From IMG/VR virus record IMGVR_UViG_3300020122_000155, positions 1-64,000 of that record: a DNA stretch of 64,000 bases; one strand, written 5' to 3'. This document shows, piece after piece, positions 2,642 to 55,000 of this stretch. Position numbers and translations under genes: made by a program. The notes beneath the pieces were generated by a model. The model had not been told where the DNA came from and made no database searches. It saw only the letters and a program-made list of their open reading frames with translations. The DNA comes from a virus. The stretch's first letter is position 1, and every line of letters starts with the position of its first letter.

Positions 2642-3588
2642 TGCCGGTATTACTATGCAAACGACTGCCACTAGCCACCGACGAAAATGCCCGCCGTTTC
2701 TGGAGCTACGTCGATATTCGAGACGAAAACCAGTGCTGGCTGTGGACTGGCGCAAAGGCCGTAGGATATGGGGCGTGGGGACATCCATGTGGTCGAATGG
2801 TCAAGGCCCACCGATACGCCTTTTTCTTGTTTTACGGCGGCGATCCCTATCCGGCCACGGTTCTTCATGATTGCGACACACCGGCTTGCTGCAACCCTCA
2901 CCACATGTCTCTTGGGGACAATACGCAGAATGCCCTCGATGCCATCTCAAGAGGAAGACGCCCGAGCAAGCAGGAGCCAGTACCAGCAACTACAGCAAAG
3001 CGGCGGAGAACGCCAAAAGGTAGTTCATGCATTCCGCTTCCGCCAATTTACGCCTCGGATCGCGAACGCTTCGAAGCTAAATATATCAAAGGCCCGGTCG
3101 AACAATGCTGGGAATGGACTGCCGCCAAAACACCACGCGGGTATGGAGTCTTTGAATTTTGCTCTGGTGGAAAAGCTAGCTCGTCCAGGGCGAATAGGGT
3201 TGCTTACGCGATTCACCATGACGCCGATCCGTACCCGCATCTCGTGCGCCATATATGTGACAATCCGCCTTGCGTAAATCCTCATCATCTTGTTCTCGGG
3301 GATCACATCGAGAACGAACAAGATAAAATTGACAGGCAACGCTTGCCTTATGGCGACCGCAACGGAAGCCGACTCTATCCTGAGCGACTAAAACGTGGCG
3401 TCGAGCACGGCATGTCTAAGCAGACGCCAGCCATCGCGGAGGACATTCTTAGATTGGCTGCGATTGGCGAACTCAGCTATCAGAAAATCGCCGATTTTAT
3501 CTTTGAAAAATACGGCGTTAGGTTGTGCATGAACACTGTCAGGCTGACGGCTCAAGGGAAAAATTCCTTCGGGAAAAGGGCGGATTGA
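2641..3588 (+). CDS. Tandem-duplicated HNH homing-type endonuclease
   Basis: A 315-residue protein with two consecutive HNH units. The first, at about residues 17-105, has CWLWTG, then AHRYAF, LHDCD and CNPHHM. The second, at about 130-225, has CWEWT, AYAIHH, RHICD and CVNPHHL. The paired His/Asn residues and CNPHH signature match the HNH_3-type family of phage free-standing endonucleases. The C-terminal 70 residues (ILRLAAIGELSYQKIADF) form a helix-turn-helix like NUMOD or resolvase-type DNA-binding domains. The gene runs against its neighbours and ends in a shared terminator, consistent with an intercalated mobile gene. A double HNH in one chain is less common than one. Confidence 0.85.
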   Translation: MPVLLCKRLPLATDENARRFWSYVDIRDENQCWLWTGAKAVGYGAWGHPCGRMVKAHRYAFFLFYGGDPYPATVLHDCDTPACCNPHHMSLGDNTQNALDAISRGRRPSKQEPVPATTAKRRRTPKGSSCIPLPPIYASDRERFEAKYIKGPVEQCWEWTAAKTPRGYGVFEFCSGGKASSSRANRVAYAIHHDADPYPHLVRHICDNPPCVNPHHLVLGDHIENEQDKIDRQRLPYGDRNGSRLYPERLKRGVEHGMSKQTPAIAEDILRLAAIGELSYQKIADFIFEKYGVRLCMNTVRLTAQGKNSFGKRAD

Positions 3589-3598
3589 AAATCCGCCC
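3578..3598. terminator. Bidirectional rho-independent terminator
   Basis: An 8-bp GC-rich stem (GGGCGGAT / ATCCGCCC, 3578-3585 with 3591-3598) around a 5-base loop lies between convergent genes. The stop codon of the HNH gene falls in the loop. A T-rich run follows on the plus strand (CCTTTTAAAT), and an A-rich run precedes it (minus-strand T run), so it can end transcription from both sides. Confidence 0.75.
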
Positions 3599-3616
3599 AA
3601 GTCCTTTTAAATCAAC

Positions 3617-4957
3617 TCATTGGCCGGAAGGGATGGCCAGCGCGTAAAATACCACGCTACAGCCGGGGTCAACGGAGTAGACGTTGTTAGTATTCACGAC
3701 GTAAAATTGGAAGCCCGCTTGGGGATTGCCCGTGGTCGCCGAGTGGCCGATGAAGATGCGCTGTCCTTCGGGGGTTTCCATGAACGTGATGTCCTGCAAG
3801 TTGACCACGCCGAAGTTGGTCGGATTGAACCAATCGACGCGGGACTTGTTGGCGTAGCGGGAGACGTAGTGCTCAACGTCGCCAGCGGTGAAGGTGTCGC
3901 CGTAGTTGGTGCCCTTCGGAACGATGTCGATCATCTTGTCGGAGGCTCCACGGAACCAGTTGGAGATGGTGACCCCTTCCAGATACCAGGAAGCGCGCTG
4001 CGCCATGTGGCAGACACCGATGGTTGCGGCGTAGGCTTCATCGTCACGGCGCTGAATCAGTTGCGATTTGCCGGACAGAAGCAGGGACGGCGTGAAGAAC
4101 CCGCCAGCGGCATTGACGGTCGGGCAGGCCAATTCGTAGGCGGACGAATAGGCGAGGCCGAGCAGCGAGCCGGTGGTATTGGTCGTGTTGAAGGTGTAGA
4201 TTCCGTAGCGCCATGAGCCCGAGGCGATGGTCGCAGAGACAGCGGCCATATTCGGGAAAACAAGCTGATCAGTGGAAGTCGGCGTGTAGTTGGCCGCTCC
4301 TACCGTGATGGTGACTTGGTTCGCGGCGAAGTTGATGCTCTTGATGCGCGCGCCAGCGGCCAGGATCACGTTGGAGCCGTTCGTCACGTCCACGAGGGCG
4401 CTCTTGCCGCGCAAGCGGATGTAGGTGAAGGCTGCGGTTTCCAACTGATAGACAACATCGGTGCCAGCGTTGCCGTTGCCGGAGACGATGGAAGTGGCCT
4501 GCGCCAGAATGCCGGTGCCGTCTTGGAAGAGGCCGATTTCGTTGTACAGCGCCATTTCCTTGATCGCATTGCCGATGGAAAACTGCAATGCGTTGGTGAT
4601 GGCCTGCTCTTTGGACTCGGTGCCCATCATGGCCAGCGAGGGAACGTTGAACGCGATGTTATTCGCGAAGTACCCGAGCGTCATGTAGGCCGAGTTCATC
4701 AGAGAACCGGTCCCGAGATCGCCGCCGTCCAAGTTGAATGCTTGGTAGTCGCCGCCGACCGAGAGCAATACGGGGATGCGCCAGCCTTGCACCGCGCCGG
4801 AACCTGCGTTCCAGTTCGAGATGCGGTGCTTTTCCGCGCGCTTCTTGAAGAGTTGGGCGAATTTGGATTCGCTGCGGGTGAGAAAATAGGAAAGTTTTGG
4901 CCGCACTTTTTCAAGCATGGTCGCAACTACCTGAGAACTGTACTGTCCGATAGCCAT
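3617..4957 (-). CDS. Major capsid protein (HK97-like, inferred)
   Basis: 446 residues. The N-terminal helix (VVATMLEKVRPKLSYFLTRS) is followed by a long beta-rich region with glycine turns and a C-terminus ending in alternating V/Y strands (FQFYVVNTNN...), the composition expected of a major head protein. It sits directly downstream of a scaffold-like gene and the portal on the same strand, the standard phage order portal - scaffold - capsid. A GGAG-type site precedes the ATG at 4957. The fold is inferred from context, size and composition rather than a motif. Confidence 0.78.
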   Translation of the reverse strand: MAIGQYSSQVVATMLEKVRPKLSYFLTRSESKFAQLFKKRAEKHRISNWNAGSGAVQGWRIPVLLSVGGDYQAFNLDGGDLGTGSLMNSAYMTLGYFANNIAFNVPSLAMMGTESKEQAITNALQFSIGNAIKEMALYNEIGLFQDGTGILAQATSIVSGNGNAGTDVVYQLETAAFTYIRLRGKSALVDVTNGSNVILAAGARIKSINFAANQVTITVGAANYTPTSTDQLVFPNMAAVSATIASGSWRYGIYTFNTTNTTGSLLGLAYSSAYELACPTVNAAGGFFTPSLLLSGKSQLIQRRDDEAYAATIGVCHMAQRASWYLEGVTISNWFRGASDKMIDIVPKGTNYGDTFTAGDVEHYVSRYANKSRVDWFNPTNFGVVNLQDITFMETPEGQRIFIGHSATTGNPQAGFQFYVVNTNNVYSVDPGCSVVFYALAIPSGQ

Positions 4958-22780: not shown

Positions 22781-23734
22781 TCAGTTAGGGTACGTTTGCG
22801 CTTCGTGGTTCTTTCCGGTCGCTTCGTTCCAAGTCAACCGCTTGCCGACGATCTGCGATGCGGCCATCTTGAAGCGGTCAAAATCAGTCATCTCTTTGCG
22901 ATTGTTGTAGCGGTAGGCCTGTTCATCCAAGTAGCGGAACAGGTGGAAGGGCTCAACTGAAACGTAGGTGCCGCTGATGCCGCGCTTCAGGAGCGCCCAA
23001 AAGTTCTCGATGGTGTTGGTGTGTACGTTACCTTCCACGTAGCTTACGGCGTGATCGATGACCTTGTGTGCGTAGTCGCCTTCCAATCCCTCGTACGACA
23101 AAAGGAAATCGGTATAGAGCGCGGAACCAGCCTCGACGTGCTTCTTAACCTCTGCCTGCAAGGTCTTCTTGCGGCGATTCGGGACTACCACGGTGCGGAC
23201 CTTGCCGCCCCGTTCCACTATGCCGAGTACCGGAGTCTTGTCTTTTCCGCCAGTGCCAGTGATCCGGCGACGGCGCTGGGCAATGTGCATGTTCCGCGCT
23301 TTGCCGCCGATGAAAGTTTCGTCTGCCTCGACGTGGCCGCTTGCCTTCTCGACAGAGCCATCATGCAGAGCCATGCGAATACGATGGTTCATAAACCAAG
23401 CCGACTTCTGAGTTACTCCTAAGTCGCGAGCCATCTCGCACGATGAAATACCGTTCTTGCAGTTCACTACCAGCCACATGGCGCAGAGCCATTTGTCGAG
23501 AGAGATTGGGGAGCTTTCGAAGATAGTTCCAACCTTCAAGGAGAACTGGGCCTTCTCATGTTTGCCATAGCATTTGTAACGGTTCTGGCTTGCGAGATAG
23601 GCGACGTTCTTGGAGCCACAGTACGGACACTCGACCTTACCATCAGCCCAGCGAAGCGAAGCTAAGAACTCATTGCAGTTGGTCGGATCGGCGAAGTATA
23701 CGATTGCTTCTTGGAGGGTGGAAGGTAGCGCCAT
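22781..23734 (-). CDS. tnp: IS1595 (ISXO2-like) transposase
   Basis: 317 residues. An N-terminal zinc ribbon (CPYCGSKNV...YKC, about 36-55) precedes a helical DNA-binding part. The DDE-type core has EADETFIGGK (D138), LYTDFLLSY (D209) and TNTIENFWALLKRGISGTY (about 239-257). The ISXO2 group uses this D-D-N/E set. All key residues are present, so the enzyme looks active. It lies 19 bp inside the right inverted repeat. Confidence 0.93.
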   Translation of the reverse strand: MALPSTLQEAIVYFADPTNCNEFLASLRWADGKVECPYCGSKNVAYLASQNRYKCYGKHEKAQFSLKVGTIFESSPISLDKWLCAMWLVVNCKNGISSCEMARDLGVTQKSAWFMNHRIRMALHDGSVEKASGHVEADETFIGGKARNMHIAQRRRRITGTGGKDKTPVLGIVERGGKVRTVVVPNRRKKTLQAEVKKHVEAGSALYTDFLLSYEGLEGDYAHKVIDHAVSYVEGNVHTNTIENFWALLKRGISGTYVSVEPFHLFRYLDEQAYRYNNRKEMTDFDRFKMAASQIVGKRLTWNEATGKNHEAQTYPN

Positions 23735-49829: not shown

Positions 49830-49883
49830 ACTTTTCTCTTGCAAAGCTCAAGGAAGAGGGTTAGACTTTGAGGTATGACGTAG

Positions 49884-50300
49884 GTGCAAGGTTCGCCAAA
49901 CGAGCAGTACGTTTACATTTTTGTCCGCCAGGACATTTCCCTTCCTCAGCAGATCGTCCAATCCAACCACGCAACGCTTTCCTTTTCTTCCCATCATGGC
50001 GTGGAGGGAATCCCAAACATTGTTCTTATCGGAGTCCCCAACGTTGCCGCACTGAAAGAGGCGTGCGCGTTGCTGTCGGCCAACCAGATTCCGCACTGGA
50101 GTTGGACTGAGCCGGATTTCAACCTGGGATTCACAGCCATTTGCACAGCCGCGATTAGCGGATCGGAGCGCCTATGTCTGGCGCACTACCGCACGTGGAA
50201 ACCAGTTTTTCCCTCGTCAGCTAACTGCAAGCTGGCAGTCTCTAACACTGCTCATGCTGGGGCGGGTCCAGCCGAGGGAACCAATGCCGCTGTAGCTTAA
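49884..50300 (+). CDS. PTH2-like peptidyl-tRNA hydrolase-fold protein overlapping tRNA genes
   Basis: GTG start at 49884. YIFVRQDISLPQQIVQSNHA corresponds to the PTH2 N-terminal strand and helix with catalytic Lys/His-type positions (V-R-x-D...Q-x-x-H-A). NIVLIGVPNVAALKEACALL and WTEPDFNLGFTAICTAAISG complete the core fold. PTH2 releases peptides from stalled peptidyl-tRNAs. After about residue 108 the frame runs through the tRNA(CTA) gene and stops inside the next tRNA-like gene, so the last ~30 residues are encoded by tRNA sequence. Confidence 0.7.
   Translation: MQGSPNEQYVYIFVRQDISLPQQIVQSNHATLSFSSHHGVEGIPNIVLIGVPNVAALKEACALLSANQIPHWSWTEPDFNLGFTAICTAAISGSERLCLAHYRTWKPVFPSSANCKLAVSNTAHAGAGPAEGTNAAVA
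50210..50283 (+). tRNA. tRNA with anticodon CTA (amber-reading), CCA encoded
   Basis: Acceptor TCCCTCG/CGAGGGA (50210-50216, 50273-50279; 7/7), D stem AGCT/AGCT, anticodon stem GCAGT/ACTGC with loop CTCTAAC (anticodon CTA at 50242-50244, T33 and A37 present), 4-base variable loop, T stem GCTGG/CCAGC, discriminator A and CCA (50281-50283). D loop lacks GG and the T loop is GGCGGGT, not TTCRANT, so folding or charging may be atypical. It lies inside the 3' end of the PTH2-like frame. Confidence 0.78.
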
Positions 50301-50355
50301 AGCAGAGCGCTCGCGCAAGCGATAGATGGAGGGTCGCGTCCTTCCAGCGGCACCA
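50286..50355 (+). ncRNA. tRNA-like RNA I with truncated anticodon arm, CCA encoded
   Basis: Acceptor GCCGCTG/CAGCGGC (50286-50292, 50345-50351; 7/7), A73 and CCA. D stem GCTT/GAGC. The anticodon arm is a 4-bp stem TCGC/GCGA capped by GCAA (50311-50322), so no anticodon exists. Variable loop of 5; T arm GGAGG-GTCGCGT-CCTTC keeps C56, G57 and T60. A tRNA mimic 3 bases after the CTA tRNA. Confidence 0.78.
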
Positions 50356-50359
50356 GAAT

Positions 50360-50443
50360 GCTTCGGTAGCTTAAATGCTAGAGCGACCGGCGATCCTCAC
50401 GGGTTGTCGGTAGATGGTGGTGAAAGGCCATCCCGGAGCACCA
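50360..50443 (+). ncRNA. tRNA-like RNA II with extended anticodon hairpin, CCA encoded
   Basis: Acceptor GCTTCGG/CCGGAGC (50360-50366, 50433-50439; one wobble), A and CCA (50441-50443). D arm GCTT-AAATGCTA-GAGC. In place of an anticodon arm is a 10-bp hairpin CCGGCGATCC-TCAC-GGGTTGTCGG (50387-50410). T arm GGTGG-TGAAAGG-CCATC. Geometry is fully tRNA-like but without decoding capacity. A T run (50446-50453) follows. Confidence 0.75.
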
Positions 50444-50454
50444 TCATTTTTTTC

Positions 50455-50565: not shown

Positions 50566-50835
50566 TTGAACCAGCCGCTAAGAGCGCCTTTAGCATCTCC
50601 ACCGCAGGCGCAACAAAAACCACCTGTCCCAATAAAGCCAAAGCCCAACGATCCCTTTCGAGAGCAGCTATCTCGTTTCAAGAAAAAGTTTGTTAGGGTC
50701 GTTACCACAGAGGGCAAATTTGAGGGTAAATTGATCTGCTTTGATTACGGATCTAAGGCCCTCGTGATCGAATCCGGCGACAGCCCGATACTGCTTTCCC
50801 ACTACCATTCCATCGTGATAATCGATGGCCAATAA
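50566..50835 (+). CDS. Sm/Hfq-like RNA chaperone
   Basis: 89 residues with a TTG start 4 bases after AGGAGG. A Pro/Gln-rich N-terminus precedes NDPFREQLSRFKKKFVRVVT, TEGKFEGKLICFDYGSKALV and a final strand (LLSHYHSIVIIDG), the helix plus five-strand order of the Sm fold. The end HYHSIVI resembles the Hfq Sm2 region (YKHAIST). Phage Hfq homologues could bind sRNAs or stabilise phage RNA. The next gene starts in the stop as TAATG. Confidence 0.75.
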   Translation: MNQPLRAPLASPPQAQQKPPVPIKPKPNDPFREQLSRFKKKFVRVVTTEGKFEGKLICFDYGSKALVIESGDSPILLSHYHSIVIIDGQ

Positions 50836-52863: not shown

Positions 52864-53837
52864 ACGAAGAACAAGAACTAGCCGGACTACTTGAGCAGCA
52901 CAATAATCAGCCGCCGCGACCGAGCAACGTCGAGCTAGCGTCATCGCCGCCGATGCGAACCGGAACCGATGTCGATTTCGCCCAGTGGCAGATTCTTTCG
53001 AACGGGAAGTATCGGCCAGGAGCAAAGACGCGAGAGAAGCTGCCTGCCGCCGTCTACCGCGCCGGTCAGGACGATTTCGGCCCGTTCCTGGAGCTAATCA
53101 GCCTTGTCTCTGACGACTTCGTAGAGCTTCCAGAACCGGCGCATATTCGCGTACTCGACGGCATTCGAAAGTTCTGGCGGTCGCGTGAGCGTTACGAAAA
53201 ACATGGCCTGTTGTATAAGCGCGGCGTGCTTTTGTGGGGACCTCCAGGAGCCGGGAAAACGGTGTGCATTCACCTGCTGATGGCGGAGATCGTCAACAAG
53301 CATGACGGCATTGTTCTGCTGGCTGACAATCCCGATTTGACGGTGGCCGTCCTGCGATTCTTCCGCCGCATCGAGCCGACGCGCCCGTTGATTGTTGTGT
53401 TCGAGGACGTGGACGAAACCGTGAACCGATTCGGCGAACACTCCCTGCTTGCGGTACTCGATGGAGAACACCAAACGTCGAACATCGTCTATCTGGCGTC
53501 AACCAATTACCCGGAGCGCCTTGGTGCGCGGATCGTCAACCGTCCTTCGCGCTTCGATGAACGAATCAAGATCGGTATGCCGTCGAGCGCAGCGCGGATG
53601 GGGTATCTCAAAAAAGCGATAGGGACCGGCGATGTGAATGTCGAAAAATGGTGCTTAGAGACGGACGGAATGAGTATCGCGCATCTTCGCGAGCTTGTGG
53701 TTGCGGTGCTCTGCTTGGAGCAGGATTATGAGACTGTTCTTGCTCGGCTGAAGGCGATGGAAATCATGCCAAAACCGGAGGATGGATTCAAACACGCGAA
53801 GTTTGGACTCGAAAACGCAATGCGTGGTTTACGATGA
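52860..53837 (+). CDS. AAA ATPase (phage loader/chaperone-like)
   Basis: 325 residues, GTG start at 52860 overlapping the previous stop. Walker A GPPGAGKT (about 127-134), Walker B LIVVFEDVDE (about 177-186) and an Arg finger region NRPSRFDERIKI. The N-terminal ~110 residues are an adaptor. This is the FtsH/RuvB-like AAA group used by phages as helicase loaders or protein remodellers; partners are not shown. Confidence 0.85.
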   Translation: MNEEQELAGLLEQHNNQPPRPSNVELASSPPMRTGTDVDFAQWQILSNGKYRPGAKTREKLPAAVYRAGQDDFGPFLELISLVSDDFVELPEPAHIRVLDGIRKFWRSRERYEKHGLLYKRGVLLWGPPGAGKTVCIHLLMAEIVNKHDGIVLLADNPDLTVAVLRFFRRIEPTRPLIVVFEDVDETVNRFGEHSLLAVLDGEHQTSNIVYLASTNYPERLGARIVNRPSRFDERIKIGMPSSAARMGYLKKAIGTGDVNVEKWCLETDGMSIAHLRELVVAVLCLEQDYETVLARLKAMEIMPKPEDGFKHAKFGLENAMRGLR

Positions 53838-55000
53838 ACGAAGCCGACTTGAAGATAATCGCCGAGCGCGAGGAGCGCGAAAAGACGCCGTGGATGTGGT
53901 GGCACTGGCAGAACCTCAACGACAAAAAGGGCGGCGGTCAAGGCTCTGGTTTGCGCCACGGTCGATGCTGGTGGCACTTCCGCACGAAGAGTCGCAGGCC
54001 AGGGCCAACAATCCAGTTCTCTTGGAATCTGTGGTCGCATTTTTGCGGCATCGGAGTTGACTGGGACGACGAGGATTTGACGTTCAGCGCCGCGTTCCCG
54101 CCGTTCGCGTTCTGGCTGTCGCTAAGCACAAATTTCGCGTGGATAGACAAGATCCTGCCGCACAAGGTTCTGTCGCCAAACTACCCGGACACCATCGTTG
54201 TCGATAAGCGCGAGATCGCGATAAAGATCCACAACGGCTGCGTCTGGATTCATCCATATTCGAAGTCGATGGAGTGGGTGAAGGCCGATCCGTGGTGGGT
54301 GCGTGGGGTCAGCTTCAGCATCAATCCGTTCGAAGCAAAACATCAGCGCCATGAAGTCCGGCGCGCCGATGGTTCTTGGGTGCCTTACGTCGGATCGTGG
54401 GAAGTTGGGCCGAGTCGCGGAGAGGGAATCGGCGGGCAGTTAGGTGGGAAGGAACCGGACGGACGCGAAGAGTTCAAGTATCCGTACACCTACGTTCGCA
54501 AAAACGGGGAGGTTCAGCAGCGAACGGCTACGGTGTTTGTTGACCGGCGTGCATGGCGTCCACGGTGCCTTCAGTGGACTTCGCTATTCGAGGATCAGCG
54601 CCAGTGCATCGACGTTTCCTTTGACGACGAAGTGGGCGAGCGCAGCGGATCGTGGAAGGGTGGCGCGGTCGGGTGCGGCTACGAGATGCTTCGCGGCGAG
54701 ACGGCGGAAGAGTGCTTACGGCGCATGGAGCGCGAGAGGAAATTCTTGATGCGGTACATCGTAATCTTTCAGCAGGTAGTCGGGAATTGGGAAATCTGCT
54801 ACTCGTGGGACGGCGAGAAGTTCACGAACTACATCGATGCGAGGAGCCACGGATTTGAAACGCGCGGTTCGGATGATTTCAATATCGGAGTTTTGAAAAA
54901 CGGACGCCTGATTTCATTTCGGTGGATGGATGAGGTTCTCGACTTTCCACTTTGCGAGATCGCGTTGCACATCGGACTGAAAGCGAACAAGGCAGCGTGA
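53834..55000 (+). CDS. Large Trp-rich phage protein (388 aa)
   Basis: WMWWHWQNLNDKKGGGQGSG and WWHFRTKSRRPGPTIQFSWN precede an acidic beta region and YTYVRKNGEVQQRT. The last ~80 residues (YIVIFQQVVGNWEICYSWDG to LCEIALHIG) look like an added domain. Abundant Trp and many charged loops suggest a carbohydrate- or nucleic-acid-binding phage protein of a widespread but uncharacterised type. Confidence 0.72.
   Translation: MNEADLKIIAEREEREKTPWMWWHWQNLNDKKGGGQGSGLRHGRCWWHFRTKSRRPGPTIQFSWNLWSHFCGIGVDWDDEDLTFSAAFPPFAFWLSLSTNFAWIDKILPHKVLSPNYPDTIVVDKREIAIKIHNGCVWIHPYSKSMEWVKADPWWVRGVSFSINPFEAKHQRHEVRRADGSWVPYVGSWEVGPSRGEGIGGQLGGKEPDGREEFKYPYTYVRKNGEVQQRTATVFVDRRAWRPRCLQWTSLFEDQRQCIDVSFDDEVGERSGSWKGGAVGCGYEMLRGETAEECLRRMERERKFLMRYIVIFQQVVGNWEICYSWDGEKFTNYIDARSHGFETRGSDDFNIGVLKNGRLISFRWMDEVLDFPLCEIALHIGLKANKAA

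Follow-up and report, generated by a model that had tools for sequence, protein, structure and literature searches.

Anticodon-sealed tRNA mimics beside an amber-interrupted PTH2-like gene in a phage genome

What use might a phage have for a transfer RNA (tRNA) that cannot read a codon? The question is raised by a locus of a soil-type phage in IMG/VR virus record IMGVR_UViG_3300020122_000155 (105,065 bases), positions 1 to 64,000 of which form the stretch of DNA analyzed here (64,000 nucleotides; hereafter, the window). Behind a tRNA with a CTA anticodon, two short genes resemble tRNAs and end in an encoded CCA, and each carries a closed hairpin in the place of an anticodon arm. They had originally been predicted to be tandem tRNA mimics that cannot decode, situated behind the tRNA and a gene resembling PTH2, and possibly acting as baits for nucleases, synthetases or other defences. 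In our analysis, both the pair and its position held up, and the arrangement recurs across phages. We consider it very likely that mimic 1 and the wider class of such elements are real, selected, anticodon-sealed RNA genes; for mimic 2 the same conclusion is probable, with a good deal less assurance.

The tRNA(CTA) is an amber-suppressor-type tRNA with an encoded CCA (50210-50283, + strand), and it is the only gene that ARAGORN calls at the locus; neither mimic is called. Mimic 1 is a 70-nucleotide tRNA-like RNA (50286-50355, + strand, CCA at 50353-50355), and mimic 2 is an 84-nucleotide one (50360-50443, + strand, CCA at 50441-50443). As predicted, the acceptor stems are complete, with seven of seven pairs in mimic 1 (GCCGCTG/CAGCGGC) and seven of seven in mimic 2 (GCTTCGG/CCGGAGC), one of the latter being G-U. 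Mimic 1 also has a D arm, a T arm and A73, and against the Rfam tRNA model RF00005 it reaches 41.8 bits (cut-off 29). There is no Rfam match for mimic 2, whose cloverleaf follows from geometry alone; its fold has a z-score of -3.1 and is better than that of 199 of 200 shuffles.

To judge the pair against chance, we used a strict scan, which demands a 7-base-pair acceptor with at most one G-U, a D stem, a T stem and CCA, on both strands of all 105,065 bases. The scan returns exactly three matches, and these are the tRNA(CTA), mimic 1 and mimic 2, side by side. The same scan on 40 dinucleotide shuffles yields a mean of 0.275 matches per genome. Chance is thus excluded as the origin of the pair, taken as a pair.

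The resemblance to tRNA is incomplete in two respects. First, neither mimic has a 7-nucleotide anticodon loop with U33. In mimic 1, the arm is sealed by a 4-base-pair stem with a GCAA cap (TCGC-GCAA-GCGA, 50310-50321, + strand), while in mimic 2 it is replaced by a hairpin of 11 base pairs, rather than the 10 originally counted, with a UCAC loop. Second, although the predicted D and T stems are present, their loops do not follow the tRNA elbow consensus: the D loops of both mimics lack GG, the T loop of mimic 1 (GUCGCGU) is not standard, and that of mimic 2 is enlarged and atypical. The mimics also do not belong to the known classes that come to mind. No match to transfer-messenger RNA (tmRNA), in which a tag reading frame is attached to a tRNA-like domain, is found at 50.1-50.6 kilobases, and the mimics have no match to YrlA (RF02553), which combines a permuted tRNA-like module with a Ro-binding stem. 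Nor are they working tRNAs of the type whose altered anticodon loop makes them insensitive to anticodon nucleases, as there is no anticodon loop to alter.

Mimic 2 is the weaker case of the two. An alternative pairing is open to its 3' end, GATGGTG/CACCATC (50413-50419/50439-50445), with a run of seven T behind it; this gives a terminator-like hairpin (50413-50453, + strand) overlapping the end of the mimic. This fold and the cloverleaf have equal energy (-40.1 versus -40.0 kcal/mol), and therefore mimic 2 may double as part of a terminator, or be one. A simple terminator scan, which allows only short loops, does not report the hairpin.

The case for a class rests on relatives. At the DNA level, no relatives were found among named phages. 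We collected loci of PTH2-like relatives in other viral records (numbered with the prefix L), and anticodon-sealed tRNA-like genes occur in the same neighbourhood on about 12 other viral contigs. Among the full-length elements, the sealed arm is capped by GCAA in L008 (6538-6611), L010 (4546-4621), L093 (7034-7115) and L095 (7113-7194), by CUCG and GAAA in two elements of L011 (5013-5087 and 5408-5483), by a 6-nucleotide loop in L005 (4459-4532), and by other short loops in L025 (4363-4437) and L032 (6716-6801). Across nine elements, 50 of 54 pairs of the sealed arm are kept, a result that none of 20,000 shuffles equals, and an RNAalifold consensus has double changes in 12 of 21 pairs. There are also still smaller elements, which we call minis: within 45-52 nucleotides, they combine an acceptor stem with two hairpins and CCA. 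They are present in L005, L006, L010, L011 (two), L023, L034, L086, L093 and L095, although the fold of one L006 mini (2885-2933) is unconvincing. An element of L007 that lacks CCA is weak.

Certain acceptor sequences are shared while the bodies attached to them differ. ACGCGGG/CCCGCGT is common to L008, L011, L027, L032, L093 and L095, and GGGCGGT/ACCGCCC to the minis of L010, L011 (two), L093 and L095 and a full-length element of L008. When 2.9 million contigs were scanned for minis of the GGGCGGT type, six contigs matched, all of them bearing the PTH2-like gene. The corresponding scan for the ACGCGGG class matched only one contig, its pattern being too strict. A pattern for minis of the window's type matched 22 stretches, among which only those in L146 and L148, both PTH2-bearing, are real minis; the other matches look like chance. 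In the remote tRNA clusters of the same records, no strong cloverleaf candidate has a sealed arm; the non-canonical candidates in these clusters show 7- or 8-nucleotide loops or can be read with a 7-nucleotide loop. Because acceptor sequences recur with differing bodies, and because sealed arms are not found in the remote clusters, the acceptor end looks like the selected part. It is important to note that acceptor pairing was itself a condition of the search, so that independent evidence comes only from the covarying arms and from the acceptor sequences that phages share. A separate observation is that Lys(UUU)-like tRNAs with a changed U33 or an unusual loop size lie near the PTH2-like gene in L010 (4623-4704), L093 (7330-7404) and L031 (5441-5516).

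We therefore turn to the gene that accompanies these RNAs. In the window, the core of the PTH2-like gene runs from an ATG at 49875 to the end of the conserved core at ...HYRTW (49875-50199, + strand), and its third codon is an in-frame amber codon (ATG ACG TAG GTG CAA; 49881-49883, + strand). The frame has no stop codon ahead of the tRNA(CTA), and it continues through the tRNA to a TAA inside mimic 1 (50298-50300). Sequence profiles detect the relationship to PTH2 weakly. However, the predicted structure of the protein (AlphaFold, predicted local distance difference test 90.7) has the PTH2 fold, as originally proposed, and the top 14 PDB matches found with Foldseek are PTH2 or unnamed proteins of PTH2 fold (E values from 4e-5 to 2e-3). 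In PTH2, the active-site lysine four positions before a conserved Gln is, we presume, the residue that acts in catalysis. The putative place of this lysine is taken by Q, H or D, as read from alignment A2 against PDB entry 24bt, the sequence alignment being weak. With this lysine apparently replaced, the PTH2-like protein may be a binder rather than a cutter.

The amber codon is not peculiar to the window. Among 58 representative relatives, up to 45 have an early in-frame UAG between an upstream start and the conserved core, most often at codon 3; this is an upper count, since a few loci (e.g., L035, L042, L089 and L118) have only a far-upstream start or a plausible later one. UAA or UGA takes its place in none, and in 44 of the 45 a purine follows the UAG directly. 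The amber codon is thus the rule and no accident. Reinitiation after the UAG is improbable as a common explanation, given that 29 of the 45 have no start codon (ATG, GTG or TTG) between the UAG and the core. Genome-wide recoding of UAG in the window's phage was also rejected: 47 long genes end in 20 TAA, 20 TGA and 7 TAG. The in-frame amber at codon 3, which was originally overlooked, ties the PTH2-like gene to the neighbouring suppressor tRNA.

Cultured phages with the early UAG include GAP32, CBB, BF, Kaldavass, XbC2, ME3 and Arash. The annotation in most of their records either begins the PTH2-like gene at a later start or omits it. Near the gene, annotation or tRNA calling places a suppressor-type tRNA in GAP32, Kaldavass, ME3 and Arash. 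Since jumbo phages in culture, among them GAP32, CBB and ME3, also have the amber-gated gene, the role of jumbo-phage suppressor tRNAs and of the PTH2-like protein can be tested directly. In two loci, tRNA-like genes with the anticodon TTA, which would read UAA, stand beside the amber-suppressor tRNAs (L089 6316-6399 and L031 5038-5115).

The PTH2-like part is further linked to an HD-domain-like protein, whose Pfam HD match is weak (E value 0.016). In XacN1 and RAS14, the HD-like and PTH2-like domains are fused in one gene (L117 2440-3303 and L119 2440-3303) that begins ATG AAG TAG ACC; since this UAG precedes the HD part, we placed both fusions among the 13 relatives without an early UAG. Elsewhere, the HD-like gene directly follows the PTH2-like gene, at 3312-3878 in each of L113, L114, L115, L116 and L120 (XbC2, BF, CBB, GAP32, Kaldavass). 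It is separate but interrupted by UAG in the GAP32 group and in two metagenomic phages; in the five phages just named, codon 47 is a conserved in-frame UAG, and the parts are annotated as separate genes. The HD-like gene is intact in ME3 and Arash. Finally, 5 of the first 11 relatives have permuted tmRNA genes within a few kilobases. The neighbourhood is a module of a PTH2-fold gene with an in-frame UAG, amber-suppressor tRNAs and, often, a permuted tmRNA.

What, then, might the mimics do in this module? An acceptor end on a non-decoding RNA adjoins a gene for a protein that apparently needs a suppressor tRNA to be made and that has a fold known to bind tRNA acceptor ends, and for this reason the simplest and most likely account is that the mimics are ligands of, or decoys for, the PTH2-like protein. 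We put forward only tentatively the specific proposal that they serve as non-decoding acceptor-end ligands of this protein; it falls short of an even chance. According to this proposal, the two window genes would yield short, non-decoding tRNA-like RNAs of a phage translation-control module, whose other parts would be the PTH2-fold protein, encoded by a gene that starts ATG-NNN-UAG, and the UAG-reading suppressor tRNAs, joined in relatives by a permuted tmRNA and the HD partner. Host tRNA-processing enzymes would presumably trim the operon transcript into RNAs ending in the encoded CCA. Judging from the structure, the closed hairpin precludes decoding and leaves the acceptor end available, so that the mimics could occupy some protein with affinity for the acceptor ends of tRNAs. 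Foremost among the candidates is the adjoining PTH2-like protein, which the mimics might titrate or position. Its own synthesis would depend on a charged suppressor tRNA beating release factor 1 at codon 3, as the conserved UAG suggests. A broader form of the idea, which we regard as possible and more doubtful, is a widespread module whose PTH2-fold protein is turned on when a suppressor reads through its own third-codon UAG and is regulated via the acceptor end by sealed mimics, including the two-hairpin minis of about 50 nucleotides. If true, the known phage RNAs would gain a class reduced to the working end of a tRNA.

Several points weigh against a PTH2-like partner. With the presumed catalytic residue apparently changed, even the activity of the protein is uncertain. 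Many relatives, including cultured jumbo phages, have no mimics near the PTH2-like gene (within 3 kilobases), and therefore they are not a general requirement of the protein. Neither of the mimics in the window has a close orthologue, and RNAs of relatives in the same slot are shaped differently. Part of the sharing of acceptor stems may be due to common descent, since the phages concerned are related. Moreover, co-location alone is no proof, since these phages carry many tRNAs.

Nearly as likely as binding to the PTH2-like protein is that the mimics are decoys in counter-defence, which we rate as a possibility well short of probable. They would absorb host toxins or nucleases directed at the CCA tail or acceptor end of tRNAs, and they could not be cut at an anticodon loop. 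Phage tRNAs are known to resist tRNA-directed defences or to make good the damage (PMC10264068, PMC11555353), the module resembles tRNA repair and ribosome rescue in its PTH2 fold, HD domain and tmRNA (PMC7824862), and Lys(UUU)-like elements with altered loops are neighbours of the mimics. However, the phage tRNAs known to protect in this way are functional and take the place of cleaved ones; they are not baits without a loop, and a defence target in these hosts is not known. The bait function that was originally suggested is weakly supported and has to be narrowed: baiting of anticodon nucleases is unlikely because loop-cutting enzymes would find no loop, and thus nothing to recognize, in the mimics, whereas the mimics may be bait for a reader of the acceptor end, be it a synthetase, a toxin or the PTH2-like protein that the phage itself encodes.

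It is unlikely that the mimics are simply punctuation, i.e., cut sites between RNAs, with mimic 2 in part a transcription terminator. The tight spacing of 1-4 nucleotides between elements and the hairpin and T tract that end mimic 2 are what such a role might leave. Yet ordinary tRNAs already serve as cut sites, punctuation does not call for covarying sealed arms or recurring tetraloop caps, and mimic 1 has no terminator. We give slightly less credence to the mimics being aminoacyl donors or synthetase ligands, which would be charged at the acceptor end and feed or block a tRNA-dependent enzyme off the ribosome. Their perfect acceptors with CCA, and the identity of some acceptor sequences across phages, would suit this role, but no tRNA-dependent transferase is recognized beside them, many synthetases also read the anticodon, and the discriminator base varies among A, G and T. 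Least likely of all is that they are duplicated phage tRNAs whose anticodon was lost by drift: remnants do occur in phage tRNA clusters and the D and T loops of the window's mimics are atypical, but decay would not leave perfect acceptors, covarying arms and tetraloop caps recurring in separate phages, nor minis that retain acceptor and CCA.

Within the limits of the full-text library searched, we found no description of an amber-gated PTH2 or of sealed mimics. Phage T4 has stable RNAs that are not tRNAs within a tRNA cluster, its RNAs C and D, and these are like the mimics in that respect. The nearest known systems are none of them the same as the mimics. The phage tRNAs that resist defence (PMC10264068, PMC11555353) are likewise phage-encoded, lie in tRNA clusters and have changed anticodon loops; they remain working tRNAs, in contrast to the mimics, which have no loop capable of decoding. 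The pseudo-tRNA tRNA-Other of Bacillus cereus (PMC3399842) is a tRNA-like gene outside translation, whereas the mimics are several short, CCA-ending phage genes associated with both a suppressor tRNA and a gene resembling PTH2. Like the mimics, tmRNA and permuted tmRNA (Rfam RF04321) have a tRNA-like acceptor end without an anticodon, and permuted tmRNA is nearby in several relatives, but the mimics have no reading frame and measure 45-91 nucleotides. YrlA, a bacterial Y RNA (Rfam RF02553), is also a small RNA with a tRNA-like module; it is permuted and belongs with Ro60, while the mimics are not permuted. The PTH2 of jumbo phages, which has an archaeal-type peptidyl-tRNA hydrolase fold, has been proposed to act in ribosome rescue, and the passages found in that paper mention neither an in-frame amber codon nor mimics (PMC7824862). 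Given that related phages carry the same kind of RNA in the same place, next to an amber-suppressor tRNA and the gene with the early amber codon, the mimics look to be a genuine, as yet unexplained class of tRNA-like RNAs that do not decode.

The same phage has a tandem array of permuted tRNA-like pieces at 36550-37100 (- strand), with modules bordered by CGATAT and GAC(A/G)TACACG. This array (36.6-37.1 kilobases) has a sub-threshold match to YrlA (32.5 bits, cut-off 69), and no Ro60/TROVE protein was found in the record. Directly 3' of the mimics, a small protein is encoded (50566-50835, + strand) with a weak match to an Lsm (Sm-like) domain (Pfam PF21166, E value 3e-4, below the cut-off). 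Farther downstream is a protein (53834-55000, + strand) with a strong match to the Acb3 family of inhibitors of the cyclic-oligonucleotide-based anti-phage signalling system (CBASS; PF25187, E value 1e-36). An IS1595-type transposase is encoded within the phage record at 22781-23734 (- strand).
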